Below are positions 41,423-46,655 of a stretch of 64,000 nucleotides of DNA, one piece after another. The stretch is taken from assembly GCA_017622555.1 (NCBI GenBank), contig JAGAQV010000008.1, positions 1 through 64,000 on the forward strand, read 5' to 3'. The position numbers were made by a program, and so were the translations under genes. The notes below the pieces were generated by a model. The model saw nothing but the letters and a program-made list of their open reading frames with translations. It ran no database searches and was not told the origin of the DNA. Source of the stretch: Clostridia bacterium (GTDB taxonomy: Bacteria; Bacillota; Clostridia; Oscillospirales; Acutalibacteraceae). Each line of letters starts with the position of its first letter. Positions within the stretch are counted from its first letter, which is position 1.

Positions 41423-41881
41423 TCACTTAAACAAATTTTTGAATTTTACAAAATATTTATAACAGGGCTTTAAAAAATGCACCCACGGCCACAGACGACA
41501 ATAAAATTTATAACCTTTTGAAAGGTTGACATCAACCGTTTTTTCATAGCGAGTAAATGCGGTAACAACACCAATTATTTGGTCGTCACGAACGTCAAAT
41601 TCCTTTTCCCATTGGTTGTCACCACGGCAGGTGTAATTGCCGTTTTTTTGCAGCTTTATTACACGGTGCAAAATAAAGCTTCCGTCATCACGGCGGTAAA
41701 AAGGAATGTCGTATTTTTTAAGTTTTCCGTTATGCTTTCTAATGGTAACCGTATCACGACGGTTGAAAACCATTGGTTGCATACTTATTCCCGAAACCGT
41801 AAAGGTAACCTCGCCACCATCAGCTATTTTCTCCGCCATTACGGGATAAAGCTCCTCCATAGGAATATGCTTTTTATTCAA
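41423..41881 (-). CDS. S24/S26-family (SipW-like) signal peptidase
   Basis: A 152-residue protein with the nucleophile motif SGISMQP (Ser33) and ILHRVI (His72). It has a Ser-His layout, as in SipW and archaeal/ER signal peptidases rather than the Ser-Lys of LepB. CRGDNQWEKE is the downstream box. No N-terminal membrane helix is seen; the aromatic/basic C-terminus (about 120-152) may contact the membrane. It overlaps the pqqD-like gene by 8 bases. In this setting it is a candidate leader protease for the two short peptides. Confidence 0.85.
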   Translation of the reverse strand: MNKKHIPMEELYPVMAEKIADGGEVTFTVSGISMQPMVFNRRDTVTIRKHNGKLKKYDIPFYRRDDGSFILHRVIKLQKNGNYTCRGDNQWEKEFDVRDDQIIGVVTAFTRYEKTVDVNLSKGYKFYCRLWPWVHFLKPCYKYFVKFKNLFK

Positions 41882-42137
41882 TGCAACCTTCCTCTTTCAT
41901 TGCTTTTAAAAAGCCTTCAACAGCTGTGTTTGCGGTTGCTTCGTCTATATCGTATTGTTTTATTAAAGCTAACGCTAGGTCCTGCTCAGTAAAATCGCCG
42001 TTTGCAGCTTCCCACATAAATTTTGCTGTTTCATTTAAGGTTATAACACCATTAAAATTAATTGCAGTATCACCAAGCGGCACTAAAACGTAACTGCCCA
42101 TTAATTCTTTAACTACATAATTTTCGTTGCGCTTCAT
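41874..42137 (-). CDS. PqqD-family RiPP recognition element protein
   Basis: An 87-residue stand-alone PqqD-like protein: a three-stranded beta N-terminus (YVVKELMGSYVLVPLGDTAINFNGVITLNETAKFMWE) followed by a helical end (LIKQYDIDEATANTAVEGFLKAMKEEG). The LNETAKFMWE segment is the usual signature. Such proteins bind leader peptides and present them to modification enzymes. No radical SAM or cyclase gene lies nearby. It is 3 bases from the HPr-kinase-like gene. Confidence 0.88.
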   Translation of the reverse strand: MKRNENYVVKELMGSYVLVPLGDTAINFNGVITLNETAKFMWEAANGDFTEQDLALALIKQYDIDEATANTAVEGFLKAMKEEGCIE

Positions 42138-42140
42138 AGA

Positions 42141-42845
42141 TTATTCTCCTTTAGTCATGGCTTCAACCGCTACCCTTGCGGCGTTAAGAGTTGGAGTACA
42201 TTCCATTTTATAAATTGGTACTGTCGCCGCAATTTTTTGTAAAAGCTCTAATTCTTTGTCAAGCTGCTGTTCATCAAGCCTGCGAAGTGAAGCATGATAC
42301 ATTTTAAATATAGCCTCTTTACCATCCATAATGGAAACCTTGTCTTCACTACCACGGCTAATAAAACAAATTCCGCCAAGCTTAACGGTTTTGGGCGCGC
42401 TTATATCGTGCTTACCGCTAAATGGTGTGCCATAAGCATAAATACCATCCTTCAAAACACGAACTGCGGGCTTATCGTCATTTAAAATATATGCTTTATC
42501 ACCTAGTAATTCAAGCCAAAGAGAAGTGTGAGTTGACTTTCCAGTACCACAAGGCGCTGAAAATAAATACGCCTTATCTTCATATACCACAGCCGAGGCG
42601 TGAAAATACACACCGTCAAAATTTAAAAGCTGGCGATAAAAAATGCCCGCTTCAATCATATAAGCTGAAATTTCTTCACTTGCGTTATTGCGTGCGATAT
42701 AGTCATCAATCGCCGACTTTTGAGGAGCAACGGTAATATCGGCTTTTTCAAAATCTTCCAAGCTTAAATATTTTTCGGCTTGACGGGAGGTGATCTCCCC
42801 CGCATCCATTAAAACATTTAAGTCACAAATAGAATATTTTTTCAT
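42141..42845 (-). CDS. HPr-kinase-like P-loop protein (RiPP-associated)
   Basis: A 234-residue protein. The P-loop APCGTGKST is at 97-105 and NDDKPAV (122-128) matches the kinase's acidic motif. FHASAVVYEDKAYLFSAP is the typical HprK lead-in. It lacks the N-terminal domain of true HPr kinase. Relatives in lasso and other RiPP clusters phosphorylate Ser/Thr of precursor peptides. Here it lies between the peptide genes and a PqqD-like gene, so a peptide kinase role is plausible but unproven. Confidence 0.83.
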   Translation of the reverse strand: MKKYSICDLNVLMDAGEITSRQAEKYLSLEDFEKADITVAPQKSAIDDYIARNNASEEISAYMIEAGIFYRQLLNFDGVYFHASAVVYEDKAYLFSAPCGTGKSTHTSLWLELLGDKAYILNDDKPAVRVLKDGIYAYGTPFSGKHDISAPKTVKLGGICFISRGSEDKVSIMDGKEAIFKMYHASLRRLDEQQLDKELELLQKIAATVPIYKMECTPTLNAARVAVEAMTKGE

Positions 42846-42881
42846 TCCAATCTCACTTTAACTGTCAAATTATCATCTTCA

Positions 42882-42912
42882 AAAAATGCTCGGTATTTCT
42901 ACCGAGCATCCT
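42882..42912 (-). terminator. Hairpin after peptide gene 1 (terminator or attenuator)
   Basis: A 10-bp stem (ATGCTCGGTA / TACCGAGCAT) with 4-base loop, followed on the minus strand by a T-run. It lies between peptide gene 1 and the kinase gene, so it probably lets the peptide be made in excess over the enzymes. The same hairpin occurs after peptide gene 2. Confidence 0.85.
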
Positions 42913-42915
42913 TTT

Positions 42916-43041
42916 TTAAATTATTTCACTACTAGGGTTCTCAACCCACTCATAATCAAGACCCGGCAAATCTATAGTAAGAGCAACCGCTTCCCTTGCT
43001 TCAAAGGAAATTTTATTAACTTTAGGGAATTCAAACTTCAA
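42916..43041 (-). CDS. Short peptide 1 (41 aa), candidate RiPP precursor
   Basis: TTG start after an AGGAGG site; encodes 41 residues opening MKFEFPKVNKISFEA and ending in a different tail (LDYEWVENPSSEII). The first 20 residues match peptide 2 at 16 positions, while the C-terminal parts are unrelated. This is the conserved-leader/variable-core pattern of RiPP precursors. It has its own consensus promoter and a downstream hairpin. It does not match any family I can name. Confidence 0.75.
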   Translation of the reverse strand: MKFEFPKVNKISFEAREAVALTIDLPGLDYEWVENPSSEII

Positions 43042-43112
43042 CGCAAAAACCTCCTAACGTTTATTAACGCCTTAAATTACCACAAATATGCAACTTATTA
43101 TAATTCAAATAC

Positions 43113-43141
43113 ATTATACAATACATTTTCCAAGTTGTCAA
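43113..43141 (-). promoter_or_regulatory. Consensus sigma-A promoter of peptide gene 1
   Basis: Perfect TTGACA, 17 bases, TATAAT on the minus strand, with a leader of about 65 bases before the TTG start. It is one of the two best promoters in the window. Confidence 0.9.
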
Positions 43142-43154
43142 CCATATATTTAAA

Positions 43155-43184
43155 AAAATGCTCGGTATTTCTACCGAGCATTTT
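43155..43184 (-). terminator. Hairpin after peptide gene 2
   Basis: The same ATGCTCGGTA / TACCGAGCAT stem as after peptide gene 1, with a T-run on the minus strand. Gene plus hairpin appear to have been duplicated as a unit. Confidence 0.85.
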
Positions 43185-43188
43185 TGTT

Positions 43189-43302
43189 TTAAAATGGTTC
43201 GTCACTTGGTGTGAAATCAATATCAGGATCATCAACCATATAAGCGACAGCTTCCTTTGCTTCGAAGGAAATTTTATTAATTTCGGGGAATTCAAACTTC
43301 AT
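43189..43302 (-). CDS. Short peptide 2 (37 aa), candidate RiPP precursor
   Basis: ATG start after TAGGAGGT; 37 residues opening MKFEFPEINKISFEA and ending in an acidic tail (DDPDIDFTPSDEPF). It shares its leader half with peptide 1. The start lies 26 bases after the stop of the 1091-residue secreted protein gene with no terminator between, so it is probably co-transcribed with that gene. The tail has Ser and Thr residues that a kinase could modify. Confidence 0.75.
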   Translation of the reverse strand: MKFEFPEINKISFEAKEAVAYMVDDPDIDFTPSDEPF

Positions 43303-43328: not shown

Positions 43329-46300
43329 TTACTTACTGTTCATATAACTTGCAAGTGCATTTGCAACCGTATTATCGGAAGCGGCATCAATTGCAGCCGC
43401 AAAGTCACAGGTTATCGCTGTGCTTTCAATAGGTTGAGCATTTGCATCAGTGTAAGTAACTACTATCTTGGCAGAAATTTGGCCAAACATTTGTGAGTAA
43501 GACAAGCCGCTAATAGTAAATGTTGCGCTGGTATAAAGCTTATCCGTAGGCACGGGATATTCTACACCGCCAATTGTTAATACATACTTAGCAGTACGTC
43601 CTGCATCATAATCGGCGTTTGCCTTTACTTTGTTCTTCAATTCCTCAGTAACTGCTACCGAAATAATTGCTTTGCCTTCTTTAATGTTAACTTCGGCTTT
43701 ATTTATCCTGTAATCACTGTTAGACGGACGATCAGCAACAACCTTTGCAGCTTCAGATTCTGCAGCGGCGATTTCATTCTTTAATGTGTTAAATGAGTTA
43801 ACCAAATCAGCATTATCGCTTGCTATATAGTTTGAAGGTACAAAGGTAAATACTTCGTATGCATCGGTCCAACGCCACGAGCCGTCTTCCTTCTTAACGT
43901 AAGAAACCCAAGTGCCTGTACCGTCATCCTTACCGTCCCAAGCCATATGGAACGAAATGGTAAAGGTTTCATCCAACGTGCTGGAATTAAAGCCGTTGAA
44001 TTCGATTGTATGGCCTATATATTCGGTTGGGTCAATCGTAACATTCTTAACCTTTTCACCAATTTTGTATTTAAGGGTAAATGTGGGACCAAGCTCCTGT
44101 TCTACTGATGCATCATAGTCTCTCATAAGACCTTCACTATAATAAACTTTAAATGAGAATTTATCAGTTGCGGGGTCGTACTTAACTGAATTTTCATCTA
44201 AAGTAACAGCCGGTTCAGCGTTGATAACAGGTGCATCGGTGTAGGTGTTTCCACACAAGGTACATGTACCGTTACGTTTGCCGGGGATATAATGTGTACC
44301 TGCGGTTACTACAACGTTTTCATCATGTTCGTGAGTATAAGCAACCTCTAAATCAACTGACACAGGTGTACGTGCTGCAACAGCTATATTATTTGAAAAG
44401 CTAACAGATATTACATCACCCTTAACTACATCAAGCTCGATCACTGGGAAGCTGAACTTTTCACCCTGATTAACACGATTATCTTCACCATTAAGCGGCC
44501 AAACAAGCACATCATTTTTGTAAACGTTTACATCAACAAATGCATTCGCATTTGCCCAACACCAATAAGGATTCTGGTTAGGAAGCGTAATGAATTTTCC
44601 GTCGGTATCATACAAGGCAATTGTACCATCGGCTGTAACATTATAATTCACCCTCATGTCACGAGCCTCTTCCCAAGAGTTGCCAGGGTTAATTACCATA
44701 CCGTAGGTGGGGTCGAAAGCGATACCGCCCTGAACATAATCATACCATCTTTTGTCCTTTGTAAAGCTCAGCTGCGGAACGGCATTTGCACTTGAACCGT
44801 TACTGGTAGTATAAGCAGCATTGGTATAAGTAGTTGTACTACGTTTATAAACTGCACGCCATGCCGAATTATCAAAGCTAATTATCGGTGCACTTTCGAA
44901 AGCAGAATTGTCTGCGGGATAAGCAATAGGAGATTTTCCTGCAACTAAACCGCAAAAAGCATCATAAGCATTGCTTACAGTTTCACTTTCAACTGTAATA
45001 CGTTCATTACCAATAATCTTATCTTCAACATCAAATCTTCCATCAAAAACATATGCCATTGTTGGATTACAGCGAACTGCTACACGAACATTATTTGCAT
45101 TAGCAGTAAATACGAATGAAAAATAATCGCCCTTATTAACATTTAAAGCGCCTAAATCCGGAAAACTAACAGAAGTATTATTTAACCCAACTGTTTGTTC
45201 GCCATCAGCCTCTGAAGGCCAAATCTTATTACCGTTATGATAAATTTCCAATTGGGTATTTTTACTTTCGCTTTGGTTAGCCCACCACGGACTACTATTA
45301 AATCCGGAAGCATCGAACTTATTTGTAGTATCAAACAAAACGACTTTACCGTCATGCTCAGCATATACATTTAACCTTATCTGAGAACTGTCAGTTTCTG
45401 AAGAAGTGCTATCGTAAGCCGAAACAACTATATTTTTGTTAGTGTCATCTAATGAAACAGACGAGCAATACCAACCACCACTGTTGGCTGTGCCTCCCAT
45501 AATTCGATTACATGCGCCGTGACTGTTAACCCTGTACGACGGAGTTTTTACATATTCGGTTAATGTAACACTCGTAGAATGTGTACAATCAAAAGGAACT
45601 GTTAATCTTCCGCGAGATGACATATCCCAAGCACCGGTAAAGGAAACAGGTGAATTGTCTGCCGCATTCAAACCCGATACATAGGATTTAAAGGTAGAAT
45701 ATGCATCATACTTTCGGTCGGCATCAATAATATATTTGTTGCCTGTCGAAGAAGTTACAACTTCCTTTGTTTGTTCACCCACTTCAGCATCGGGTGCAAC
45801 GTATGCAACTGCGGGCATAGTGTAAATGCCATGTCTAAAACCTGTGGTTTTAAATTCAATAGAGATGGTCTGACCCGCCTCAATAGCAATTATACCAGCA
45901 TCGGGGAAGGCAACCATGGCGCCAATTGTAGAAACACTATTAACATCGTTTTCATCAACCGGCCAAATTTTAGTATTGTTAACATAAATAGCCCACTCGG
46001 TAGTATGACCTTCAGCAGACCAGCTATAAAAAGGAACAACATCCTTAGTTGTGCTTGAAATTGCTTCAGTCAAATCATAAAGCAAAACATTACCAGCCTT
46101 TGGGGCAGTAAATGTTAACGAAACTGAAGATTTGTGTGTTTCCGAATTAGTTGCACTATGCCACGAAGGGTCAACATATATACGTCCCTGAACCAAAGAT
46201 GCAGAAAAAATACCGGAAGTAAACACTTCGCCCTGAGCACCAAGTGATATTTGCTTATAAGCGGGAGACCATGAGTTGCCGGCATTAACATATAACTTTG

Positions 46301-46604
46301 CAACGCCTTCAGTACCGTCTGGCTTTGTGCCTTCTACCTTCCAAGCACCTGAAAATGTCATTTCGGGTGCCTCGGCATAGGTTTCACCGGCAGTTGCATT
46401 TGCAATATCTGCGGCAAGTGAATCATAAGCGCTGTATTTTGAATCGCTTAAAATTTTGTAAGACTTACCGTCAACTACAATATGTTCGGTCTTTACCGCT
46501 GTATCATTTGCTGAAACGGTTGGCATACCGAGCATAACAAATGTGCTTGCCAAAAGTGCAATTGTAAGCACTATTGCAAGTACCTGAGAGATGCGTTTTT
46601 TCAT
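43329..46604 (-). CDS. Large secreted protein with three tandem beta-sandwich-like repeats
   Basis: About 1091 residues with a cleavable signal peptide (MKKRISQVLAIVLTIALLASTFVMLGMPTVSA). Three repeats of about 220-260 residues begin near residues 30, 280 and 520. Each starts with a (Y)DAY/AYD...FxGAW-like segment, then a 'GxVxLYDxxxxF' strand, a 'hxIYxNxxxxWPxxx' segment and a 'VxxGDxxSxxF' end. Such modules resemble carbohydrate-binding domains. A CTLCGNTYTD segment near residue 775 is a degenerate form of the Cys-x2-Cys-Gly repeats of clostridial surface proteins. No LPXTG or SLH anchor is seen. Start is ATG after AGGTGG. Confidence 0.75.
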   Translation of the reverse strand: MKKRISQVLAIVLTIALLASTFVMLGMPTVSANDTAVKTEHIVVDGKSYKILSDSKYSAYDSLAADIANATAGETYAEAPEMTFSGAWKVEGTKPDGTEGVAKLYVNAGNSWSPAYKQISLGAQGEVFTSGIFSASLVQGRIYVDPSWHSATNSETHKSSVSLTFTAPKAGNVLLYDLTEAISSTTKDVVPFYSWSAEGHTTEWAIYVNNTKIWPVDENDVNSVSTIGAMVAFPDAGIIAIEAGQTISIEFKTTGFRHGIYTMPAVAYVAPDAEVGEQTKEVVTSSTGNKYIIDADRKYDAYSTFKSYVSGLNAADNSPVSFTGAWDMSSRGRLTVPFDCTHSTSVTLTEYVKTPSYRVNSHGACNRIMGGTANSGGWYCSSVSLDDTNKNIVVSAYDSTSSETDSSQIRLNVYAEHDGKVVLFDTTNKFDASGFNSSPWWANQSESKNTQLEIYHNGNKIWPSEADGEQTVGLNNTSVSFPDLGALNVNKGDYFSFVFTANANNVRVAVRCNPTMAYVFDGRFDVEDKIIGNERITVESETVSNAYDAFCGLVAGKSPIAYPADNSAFESAPIISFDNSAWRAVYKRSTTTYTNAAYTTSNGSSANAVPQLSFTKDKRWYDYVQGGIAFDPTYGMVINPGNSWEEARDMRVNYNVTADGTIALYDTDGKFITLPNQNPYWCWANANAFVDVNVYKNDVLVWPLNGEDNRVNQGEKFSFPVIELDVVKGDVISVSFSNNIAVAARTPVSVDLEVAYTHEHDENVVVTAGTHYIPGKRNGTCTLCGNTYTDAPVINAEPAVTLDENSVKYDPATDKFSFKVYYSEGLMRDYDASVEQELGPTFTLKYKIGEKVKNVTIDPTEYIGHTIEFNGFNSSTLDETFTISFHMAWDGKDDGTGTWVSYVKKEDGSWRWTDAYEVFTFVPSNYIASDNADLVNSFNTLKNEIAAAESEAAKVVADRPSNSDYRINKAEVNIKEGKAIISVAVTEELKNKVKANADYDAGRTAKYVLTIGGVEYPVPTDKLYTSATFTISGLSYSQMFGQISAKIVVTYTDANAQPIESTAITCDFAAAIDAASDNTVANALASYMNSK

Positions 46605-46655
46605 TATAAAACCACCTTTAAAATTTAATTTGGAGAACACTATCCCCTATATTGA

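Follow-up and report, generated by a model that had tools for sequence, protein, structure and literature searches.

A probable Clostridia variant of the linear polyphosphorylated peptide system with covarying leader and recognition element

Within the 64,000 nt of contig JAGAQV010000008.1 analyzed here (the window; contig C31 in our numbering), a gut-type Clostridia genome carries a gene set that probably recognizes tagged short peptides, phosphorylates them, and removes the tag. The genes are transcribed from the minus strand and encode, in this order, a large secreted protein, 2 short peptides (A and B), an HprK-like kinase, a PqqD-family protein, and an S26 peptidase (Table 1). We consider it very probable that the locus is a Clostridia variant of the system making linear polyphosphorylated peptides (LPPs), which are ribosomally synthesized and post-translationally modified peptides (RiPPs), with leader binding by a RiPP recognition element (RRE), phosphorylation by the kinase, cleavage by the S26 peptidase, and export of a linear phosphopeptide. 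The argument is built on the gene set, 4 precursor genes in this genome (G000; 1.6 Mb in 31 contigs, 98.9% complete), the co-occurrence of precursors and kinase, the covariation of leader and RRE, and the gene order behind secreted proteins, all of which are read from sequence.

LPPs were described from the lpp cluster of Paenibacillus alginolyticus DSM5050 (Popov et al., Nature Communications, May 2026; PMC13381572), in passages that list a precursor (LppA), a kinase (LppK), an RRE (LppB), a SipW-like peptidase (LppS), an exporter (LppD), and a nucleoside triphosphate (NTP) transferase (LppN). LppK puts several phosphates on Ser3 of the core, and LppS, with LppB, removes the leader; the biological role of LPPs is unknown in these passages (PMC13381572). 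Since LPP works in this way, the mechanism proposed by an earlier reading of the DNA (the sequence-only reading), in which the PqqD protein binds the leader, the kinase phosphorylates, the S26 peptidase cleaves, and the product is linear, is already in print; it draws support from this precedent and, for leader binding, from the covariation of RRE and leader, whereas its phosphorylation step is burdened by the absence of the LPP phosphosite Ser from peptides A and B.

The window kinase is HprK-like, as in LPP: H82, K103, and D124 are invariant, and D123 nearly so, across 27 relatives, and the structures closest to its model (predicted local distance difference test [pLDDT] score, 95.5) are those of PEPCK, HprK not being among the 50 matches listed. 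PEPCK shares the fold of HprK. By sequence, the kinase weakly matches the HprK-like ScmC model (E = 6.7e-7; 28.9 bits versus a cutoff of 125), and 14 of the 27 relatives match HprK_rel_A; the domain scan gave no Pfam family of its own, the close-relatives search found no kinase relative on viral contigs, and of 2 sequence comparisons with solved structures, one gave no match and the other gave 4 (E = 0.24–0.59), which were taken as chance. It is the single such gene in its genome at E ≤ 1e-6. The PqqD protein is a discrete RRE as in LPP, matching PF05402 (E = 1.3e-14) and, by RRE profile, LppB (9x8z); its N35 corresponds to LppB N33 and its A72 to LppB D70, and its model (pLDDT 93.1) is closest to lasso peptide RREs solved with their leaders. 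The S26 protein falls below the cutoffs of the signal peptidase models (TIGR02228, E = 1.2e-7; SipW, E = 2.4e-5) and of Peptidase_S24, and its assignment as a SipW-type (SpI) leader peptidase of the LPP kind comes from these weak matches and from the 39-residue spacing of S33 and H72, which equals that of S29 and H68 in LppS; both residues are invariant in 29 of 29 relatives, and D88 or D96 may be the third catalytic residue.

Profile searching located 4 leader-bearing precursors in the genome, 2 in the window, one on contig C20, and one on C17. Peptide A as sole query retrieves the other 3 at E = 3.1e-9, 4.8e-4, and 0.0026, and a profile of all 4 recovers them at 5e-21 to 6e-23, values inflated because the profile was made from these same precursors. 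The leaders read FxxP-x6-F with IxFE[A/T], the C17 version being VCFET. Peptides A and B, described in the sequence-only reading as nearly identical over their N-terminal 20 residues (17 of 20 are identical), represent a local duplication, in which 104 nt spanning the start site and leader are 78% alike and the hairpin region behind each peptide is likewise repeated (43 nt, 88% alike), with more diverged cores in between. The C-termini had been called unrelated, which does not hold wholly, as all 4 precursors carry a Ser at position −5 (0.0006 in 100,000 core shuffles; 0.006 for any residue). Nor is the system self-contained, given the 2 precursors on other contigs and a possible exporter and nucleotidyltransferase on C29 and C15, respectively. 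The C20 precursor gene lies 129 nt downstream of the gene for a 1,074-aa protein without a signal-peptide-like start, and the C17 gene 13 nt past the end of a protein truncated by the contig end. The C-terminal domain of the latter protein is homologous to that of the window secreted protein (32% over 145 positions), and each of the 2 copies of this domain in the genome is followed by a precursor gene.

Covariation between RRE and leader supports binding of the leader by the PqqD protein. Two LppB residues are concerned, D70, which forms a hydrogen bond with the leader Tyr, and N33, which keeps the leader kinked at its Pro (PMC13381572). Of 60 RREs, 59 have the Asn and one, that of G018, has Thr; in the window, Ala72 replaces the Asp and the leader has Phe in place of Tyr. 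Among 50 RREs with known leaders, 9 of 9 without the Asp come from genomes with a Phe leader, and 41 of 41 with the Asp are paired with Tyr-only leaders (Fisher test, 4e-10, without kinship correction). RREs and leaders were paired by genome, except that 2 RREs (G139 L195 and G122 L178) were matched to the Tyr leaders at the locus of each; 10 RREs stand outside this pairing, 7 from genomes without a recovered precursor sequence and 3 being second RREs without an adjacent precursor (G000 L199, with Glu; G139 L173 and G225 L166, with Asp). Five of the 9 Phe-leader genomes also have Tyr leaders, and of these 5, an Asp RRE is present as well in G122 and G139 and lacking in G052, G232, and G248; a non-Asp RRE is hence compatible with Tyr. 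On the best RRE tree, which is poorly resolved, the trait changes 6 times or more. In G066, of the same genus as the window genome, the RRE has Ser at the Asp place and a peptide with F-K-K-A, its Pro lost, is encoded 18 nt behind a secreted protein; an earlier Fisher run (8 genomes versus 37) predates the finding of this peptide. A second set, of named loci, which partly overlaps the first (e.g., L279, L315, and L321), pairs Phe leaders with non-Asp RREs in 3 of 3 cases (Ala, Cys, and Ser) and Asp with Tyr in 7 of 7, one a repeat; for 9 more of its non-Asp RREs, the sequence examined contains no precursor. Fisher's test gives 0.18 for the second set alone and 2e-10 for the pooled data (L321 excluded). 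Judged from these sequences, the leader Phe with loss of the RRE Asp is new relative to LPP and suggests a testable rule of RRE specificity (Asp with Tyr; Asp loss with Phe) useful for mining and mixing RiPP pathways.

The system extends well beyond one genome. At E ≤ 1e-6, the kinase is present in 117 of 250 family genomes, and the expectation that the same set recurs with different cores was borne out: among 40 fetched kinase loci, selected largely by score and in some cases truncated by contig ends, 28 contain S26, 17 the RRE, and 16 both. Among the best 80 named kinase loci, 38 have RRE and S26, 17 the RRE only, 3 S26 only, and 22 neither within the sequence examined. Many kinase loci (L044–L048, L050, L051, L053, and others) lie beside unrelated or housekeeping-type genes and have no local RRE, so the enzyme genes are often split up; in 2 of the 40 loci, kinase and S26 are fused (L062:5797–6939 and L072:5070–6188). 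The complete trio also occurs on contigs labeled Lentisphaeria, Planctomycetia, Thermoguttaceae, and Atopobiaceae (L307, L316, L319, and L329), which are possibly misbinned and the first of which carries a YEQP precursor; LPPs are reported, in the passages cited, as restricted to Bacillota (PMC13381572).

A search of related genomes for the MKFEFP-type leader, as the sequence-only reading had suggested, gave no match in 199 other family genomes with the profile of the window genome's own peptides, but a wider leader profile (A2), built from 15 precursors with seeds picked by eye among open reading frames with [YFW]xxP, gave precursor matches at E ≤ 0.1 in 60 of the 250, with a maximum of 9 in one genome, on 8 contigs (G073). 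The kinase is present in 49 of 49 precursor genomes at E ≤ 0.01 versus 68 of 201 others; at E ≤ 0.1, 4 of the 60 precursor genomes lack it. The family leader is [Y/F]xxPx6F, 3 residues shorter than that of the Bacilli LPPs, and acidic residues outnumber basic ones in 77 of 80 cores. Conservation at the Pro, at P+7 (counted from that Pro), and at the Tyr/Phe place is partly by construction, because the precursor filters required Pro plus a hydrophobic residue at P+7 or close to it, a later filter also requiring Tyr or Phe (no row failed). A false match inside a longer gene (G151, L198) was excluded, the matches of G018 and G160, whose sequences were not recovered, stand outside the counts, and related genomes are counted as separate.

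A number of observations weigh against assigning the locus to an LPP-type system with matched leader recognition. Contig C31 holds no LppD-type exporter and the cluster no MsbA-like one: a search with the exporter of the G098 locus gave 19 matches in the genome, none on C31, the best being on C29 (38% identity). The sole match to PF14907 (NTP_transf_5), the family to which LppN presumably belongs, lies on C15 behind a CapD-like gene (named from sequence), and no NTP transferase gene is in the cluster. If paired by genome, the Asp RREs G225 L166 and G139 L173, from Phe-leader genomes, would be 2 exceptions to the covariation; 1 of 6 independent pairs on the RRE tree rests on a well-supported branch; and of the 6 non-Asp RREs in the second set whose locus includes a precursor, 3 (Glu, Gly, and His) have a Tyr leader. 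Finally, where the family has Ser, at P+16, peptide A has Met and peptide B Thr; only the C17 peptide has a Ser there (at P+15), the C20 peptide having none at P+15 to P+17, and an S3T change abolished phosphorylation in LPP (PMC13381572). As a separate observation, the C29 contig encodes another PqqD-like protein, whose gene immediately precedes that of an MsbA-like exporter (L199:3296–5208), with Glu at the LppB D70 place and with no kinase, S26, or precursor gene seen nearby.

According to the published motif, LppA Ser3 corresponds to P+15 (PMC13381572), and the Clostridia precursors have Ser at P+16 in 62 of 80 cases and within P+15 to P+17 in 70 of 80. The LPP phosphosite cannot be transferred to the window, since neither peptide A nor peptide B has that Ser, and our guess for this genome is the shared C-terminal Ser at −5. 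A moved phosphosite is plausible by analogy, because the lasso kinases PadeK and ThcoK act on a C-terminal Ser, according to passages of a review, and a lasso-type kinase of the same kind acts on Ser3 of BsfA. Alternatively, peptides A and B might be leader-cleaved and left unphosphorylated, the C17 peptide being the sole kinase substrate, a view favored by the Ser that 70 of 80 family precursors and the C17 peptide have at P+15 to P+17 and that A, B, and the C20 peptide lack, and by the failure of S3T to be phosphorylated in LPP; with the −5 Ser present in all 4 precursors, the precedent of PadeK and ThcoK, and the conserved residues of the kinase intact, we consider this a serious possibility but somewhat doubtful. 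As for cleavage, LppS cuts after FET (PMC13381572), whose counterpart in the window genome's own peptides, FEA, is 5 residues before an A-V-A site in A and B. Thr or Ala occupies P+14 in 62 of 80 precursors, which suits a signal-peptidase-type cut after this position, and of the 2 candidate sites our guess is that A-V-A (P+14) is the most likely.

Taken as an LPP-type system, and by analogy with LPP and lasso enzymes, the RRE would bind the FxxP leader of short precursors encoded at the window locus and elsewhere in the genome, the kinase would phosphorylate a core Ser, and the S26 peptidase, its substrate presented by the RRE, would remove the leader, the likeliest cut being just behind the small residue of A-V-A. 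The resulting short, acidic, linear phosphopeptide would then be exported, probably, we guess, via an ATP-binding cassette (ABC) exporter encoded elsewhere.

Other explanations fare less well. Instead of being secreted products, the small proteins might have a regulatory role, sensing or controlling the kinase set in a process such as cell-envelope or polysaccharide synthesis, a view favored by the existence of HprK-related families of unknown role, such as HprK_rel_A, by the lack of a published role for LPPs, and by the position of the NTP_transf_5 gene behind a CapD-like gene; it is unlikely, because the combination of a constant leader with variable, predominantly acidic cores resembles a processed product. 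SipW serves biofilm proteins, and the resemblance of the S26 protein to SipW models, together with the adjoining secreted protein, could mean that it is a dedicated signal peptidase for that protein and separate from the kinase, RRE, and peptides, but this is quite improbable, considering that no N-terminal membrane anchor is visible by eye in its sequence, that LppS, an enzyme of the same type, cuts RRE-presented leaders and requires the RRE, and that S26 is fused to the kinase in 2 loci. Decay or reduction of a lasso peptide system, with loss of the cyclase and the B2 peptidase, would account for the leader motif, RRE, and kinase common to paeninodin-type clusters and for the lasso RREs as best structural matches, but is very improbable, as the genome has no match at E ≤ 0.001 to PF13471, which we take to be the B2 family (a control search was positive in 2 of 14 genomes), and no full macrolactam cyclase, PF00733 giving 2 short, weak matches, on C15 and C22, that cover 35 and 62 of its 354 positions within frames 337 and 349 codons long, and as the S26-containing set recurs in many loci with leader and RRE staying matched.

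Precursor genes tend to follow genes for secreted proteins, a gene order that offers a clue to the role of the LPP family. The upstream gene is complete and no more than 400 nt away for 58 of 81 precursors, and its product has a signal-peptide-like start, called by a simple hydropathy rule, in 45 cases and not in 13; 32 of the 45 end within 100 nt of the precursor. For the remaining precursors, the upstream gene is truncated (12), was not recovered (6), or lies more than 400 nt away (5). Against a background of 155 signal-peptide-like starts in 675 genes of at least 150 aa in the fetched loci (upstream genes included), the enrichment is significant (Fisher test, 2e-20; 2e-18 with tandem precursor repeats counted once). 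In genus g53, one precursor in 3 genomes instead follows a gene that is presumably uvrC-like. Likeness between the secreted-protein C-terminus and the core behind it, compared in 70 pairs, is strong in G139, exceeds 99% of mismatched pairs in G122, and is absent at the window, and was dropped as part of the explanation. The strongest pair (G139 L195:4496–5902) consists of a 353-aa secreted protein ending in GWSDWWTPEY and a core ending in GWSDWWTPEF. We tentatively suggest that one LPP-type enzyme set might serve as a central tagging station in trans for many large secreted proteins, each encoded just ahead of a leader-marked peptide of its own and released along with the corresponding phosphopeptide, which could be a partner, ligand, or attachment piece, and that leader and RRE were re-tuned from Tyr/Asp to Phe/non-Asp several times.

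The coordinates are collected in Table 1. All 5 genes of the sequence-only reading lie where they had been placed, on one strand with short gaps or overlaps: 147 nt between A and B, 70 nt between B and the kinase gene, 3 nt between the kinase and PqqD genes, and an 8-nt overlap of the PqqD and S26 genes. Peptide A is probably on the transcript of the secreted protein and peptide B probably heads the enzyme genes, because a perfect promoter consensus precedes B. Promoter-like sites are not in excess in the region (17 versus 19.0 in shuffles), whereas terminator-like sites are (11 versus 5.5, standard deviation 2.3). Beyond the S26 gene lie genes for an FG-GAP-repeat protein, a response regulator, and a sensor kinase, and no radical S-adenosylmethionine (SAM) gene was found among the scanned neighbors.

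Table 1. Features of the window locus (positions in the 64,000-nt window).
Feature	Position	Strand	Remarks
Precursor peptide A, 37 aa, leader MKFEFPEINKISFEAKEAVA	43189..43302	-	ATG start, AGGAGG site
Precursor peptide B, 41 aa, leader MKFEFPKVNKISFEAREAVA	42916..43041	-	TTG start, AGGAGG site
HprK-like kinase, LppK-like; P-loop APCGTGKST; predicted PEPCK-type fold	42141..42845	-	
Discrete RRE, PqqD family, LppB-like	41874..42137	-	
SipW-like S26 peptidase, LppS-like, S33 and H72	41423..41881	-	
Large secreted protein, 1,091 aa from probable internal ATG	43329..46640	-	Peptide A 26 nt downstream
Sigma-70 consensus TTGACA-17-TATAAT, perfect, upstream of peptide B	43113..43141	-	Promoter-site scan
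Hairpin ATGCTCGGTA-TTTC-TACCGAGCAT 3' of peptide A, likely terminator	43158..43181	.	Absent from terminator-scan list
Identical hairpin between peptide B and kinase, likely terminator or attenuator	42886..42909	.	Scan lists plus strand

Among known systems, the SynChlorMet cassette (ScmC/ScmD) and HprK_rel_A (NCBIfam) share the pairing of HprK-like and PqqD-like proteins, but the window proteins score far below the cutoffs and, unlike in SynChlorMet, no neighboring radical SAM gene accompanies them. Paeninodin-type lasso systems (PadeK, ThcoK, and SyanK) resemble the locus in combining an RRE with an HprK-like kinase bearing the His-Lys-Asp-Asp set; their leader motif has Trp (PMC13381572), whereas the window leaders have Phe. 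In a lasso context, HPr kinase, PqqD, and an uncharacterized nucleotidyltransferase are reported in approximately 58%, 46%, and 30% of analyzed ruminal genomes, respectively (passages of PMC7533575). For YxxP-binding RREs, replacement of the first motif residue by another hydrophobic one (e.g., LxxP for YxxP) has been published, but the passages of PMC12710340 mention neither Phe at this place nor a corresponding loss of the Asp from the RRE. The main text of PMC13381572 makes no mention of FxxP, phenylalanine, Clostridi-, Oscillospir-, secreted, or surface protein, and listings and passages of the open-access literature yielded no second account of an LPP-type system.

The closest likeness is to LPP itself, with which the locus shares a precursor with a [Y]xxP-type leader, an HprK-like kinase, a discrete RRE, a SipW-like peptidase, and the lack of a cyclase. 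The likeness of the leaders is partial, the LPP leader reading YxxPxVLxHQxIxFETxxS (Px9Fx[T/A]) and those of the window genome Px6F, which does not conform to the LPP pattern; Phe replaces the LPP Tyr with the RRE Asp lost, and, unlike in LPP, an equivalent of LppA Ser3 is missing in both window peptides. The exporter and nucleotidyltransferase genes, together in LPP clusters, are not adjacent in this genome, its precursors are spread over the genome, and family precursors often lie behind secreted-protein genes, again unlike LPP. The system is real and functional-looking, and it differs from LPP in leader spacing, in the Phe/Ala pair, in a moved or lost phosphosite, and in having precursors and accessory genes in trans; to LPPs, known from Paenibacillus and of unknown role, the Clostridia branch adds many members (precursor matches in 60 of 250 family genomes, E ≤ 0.1).
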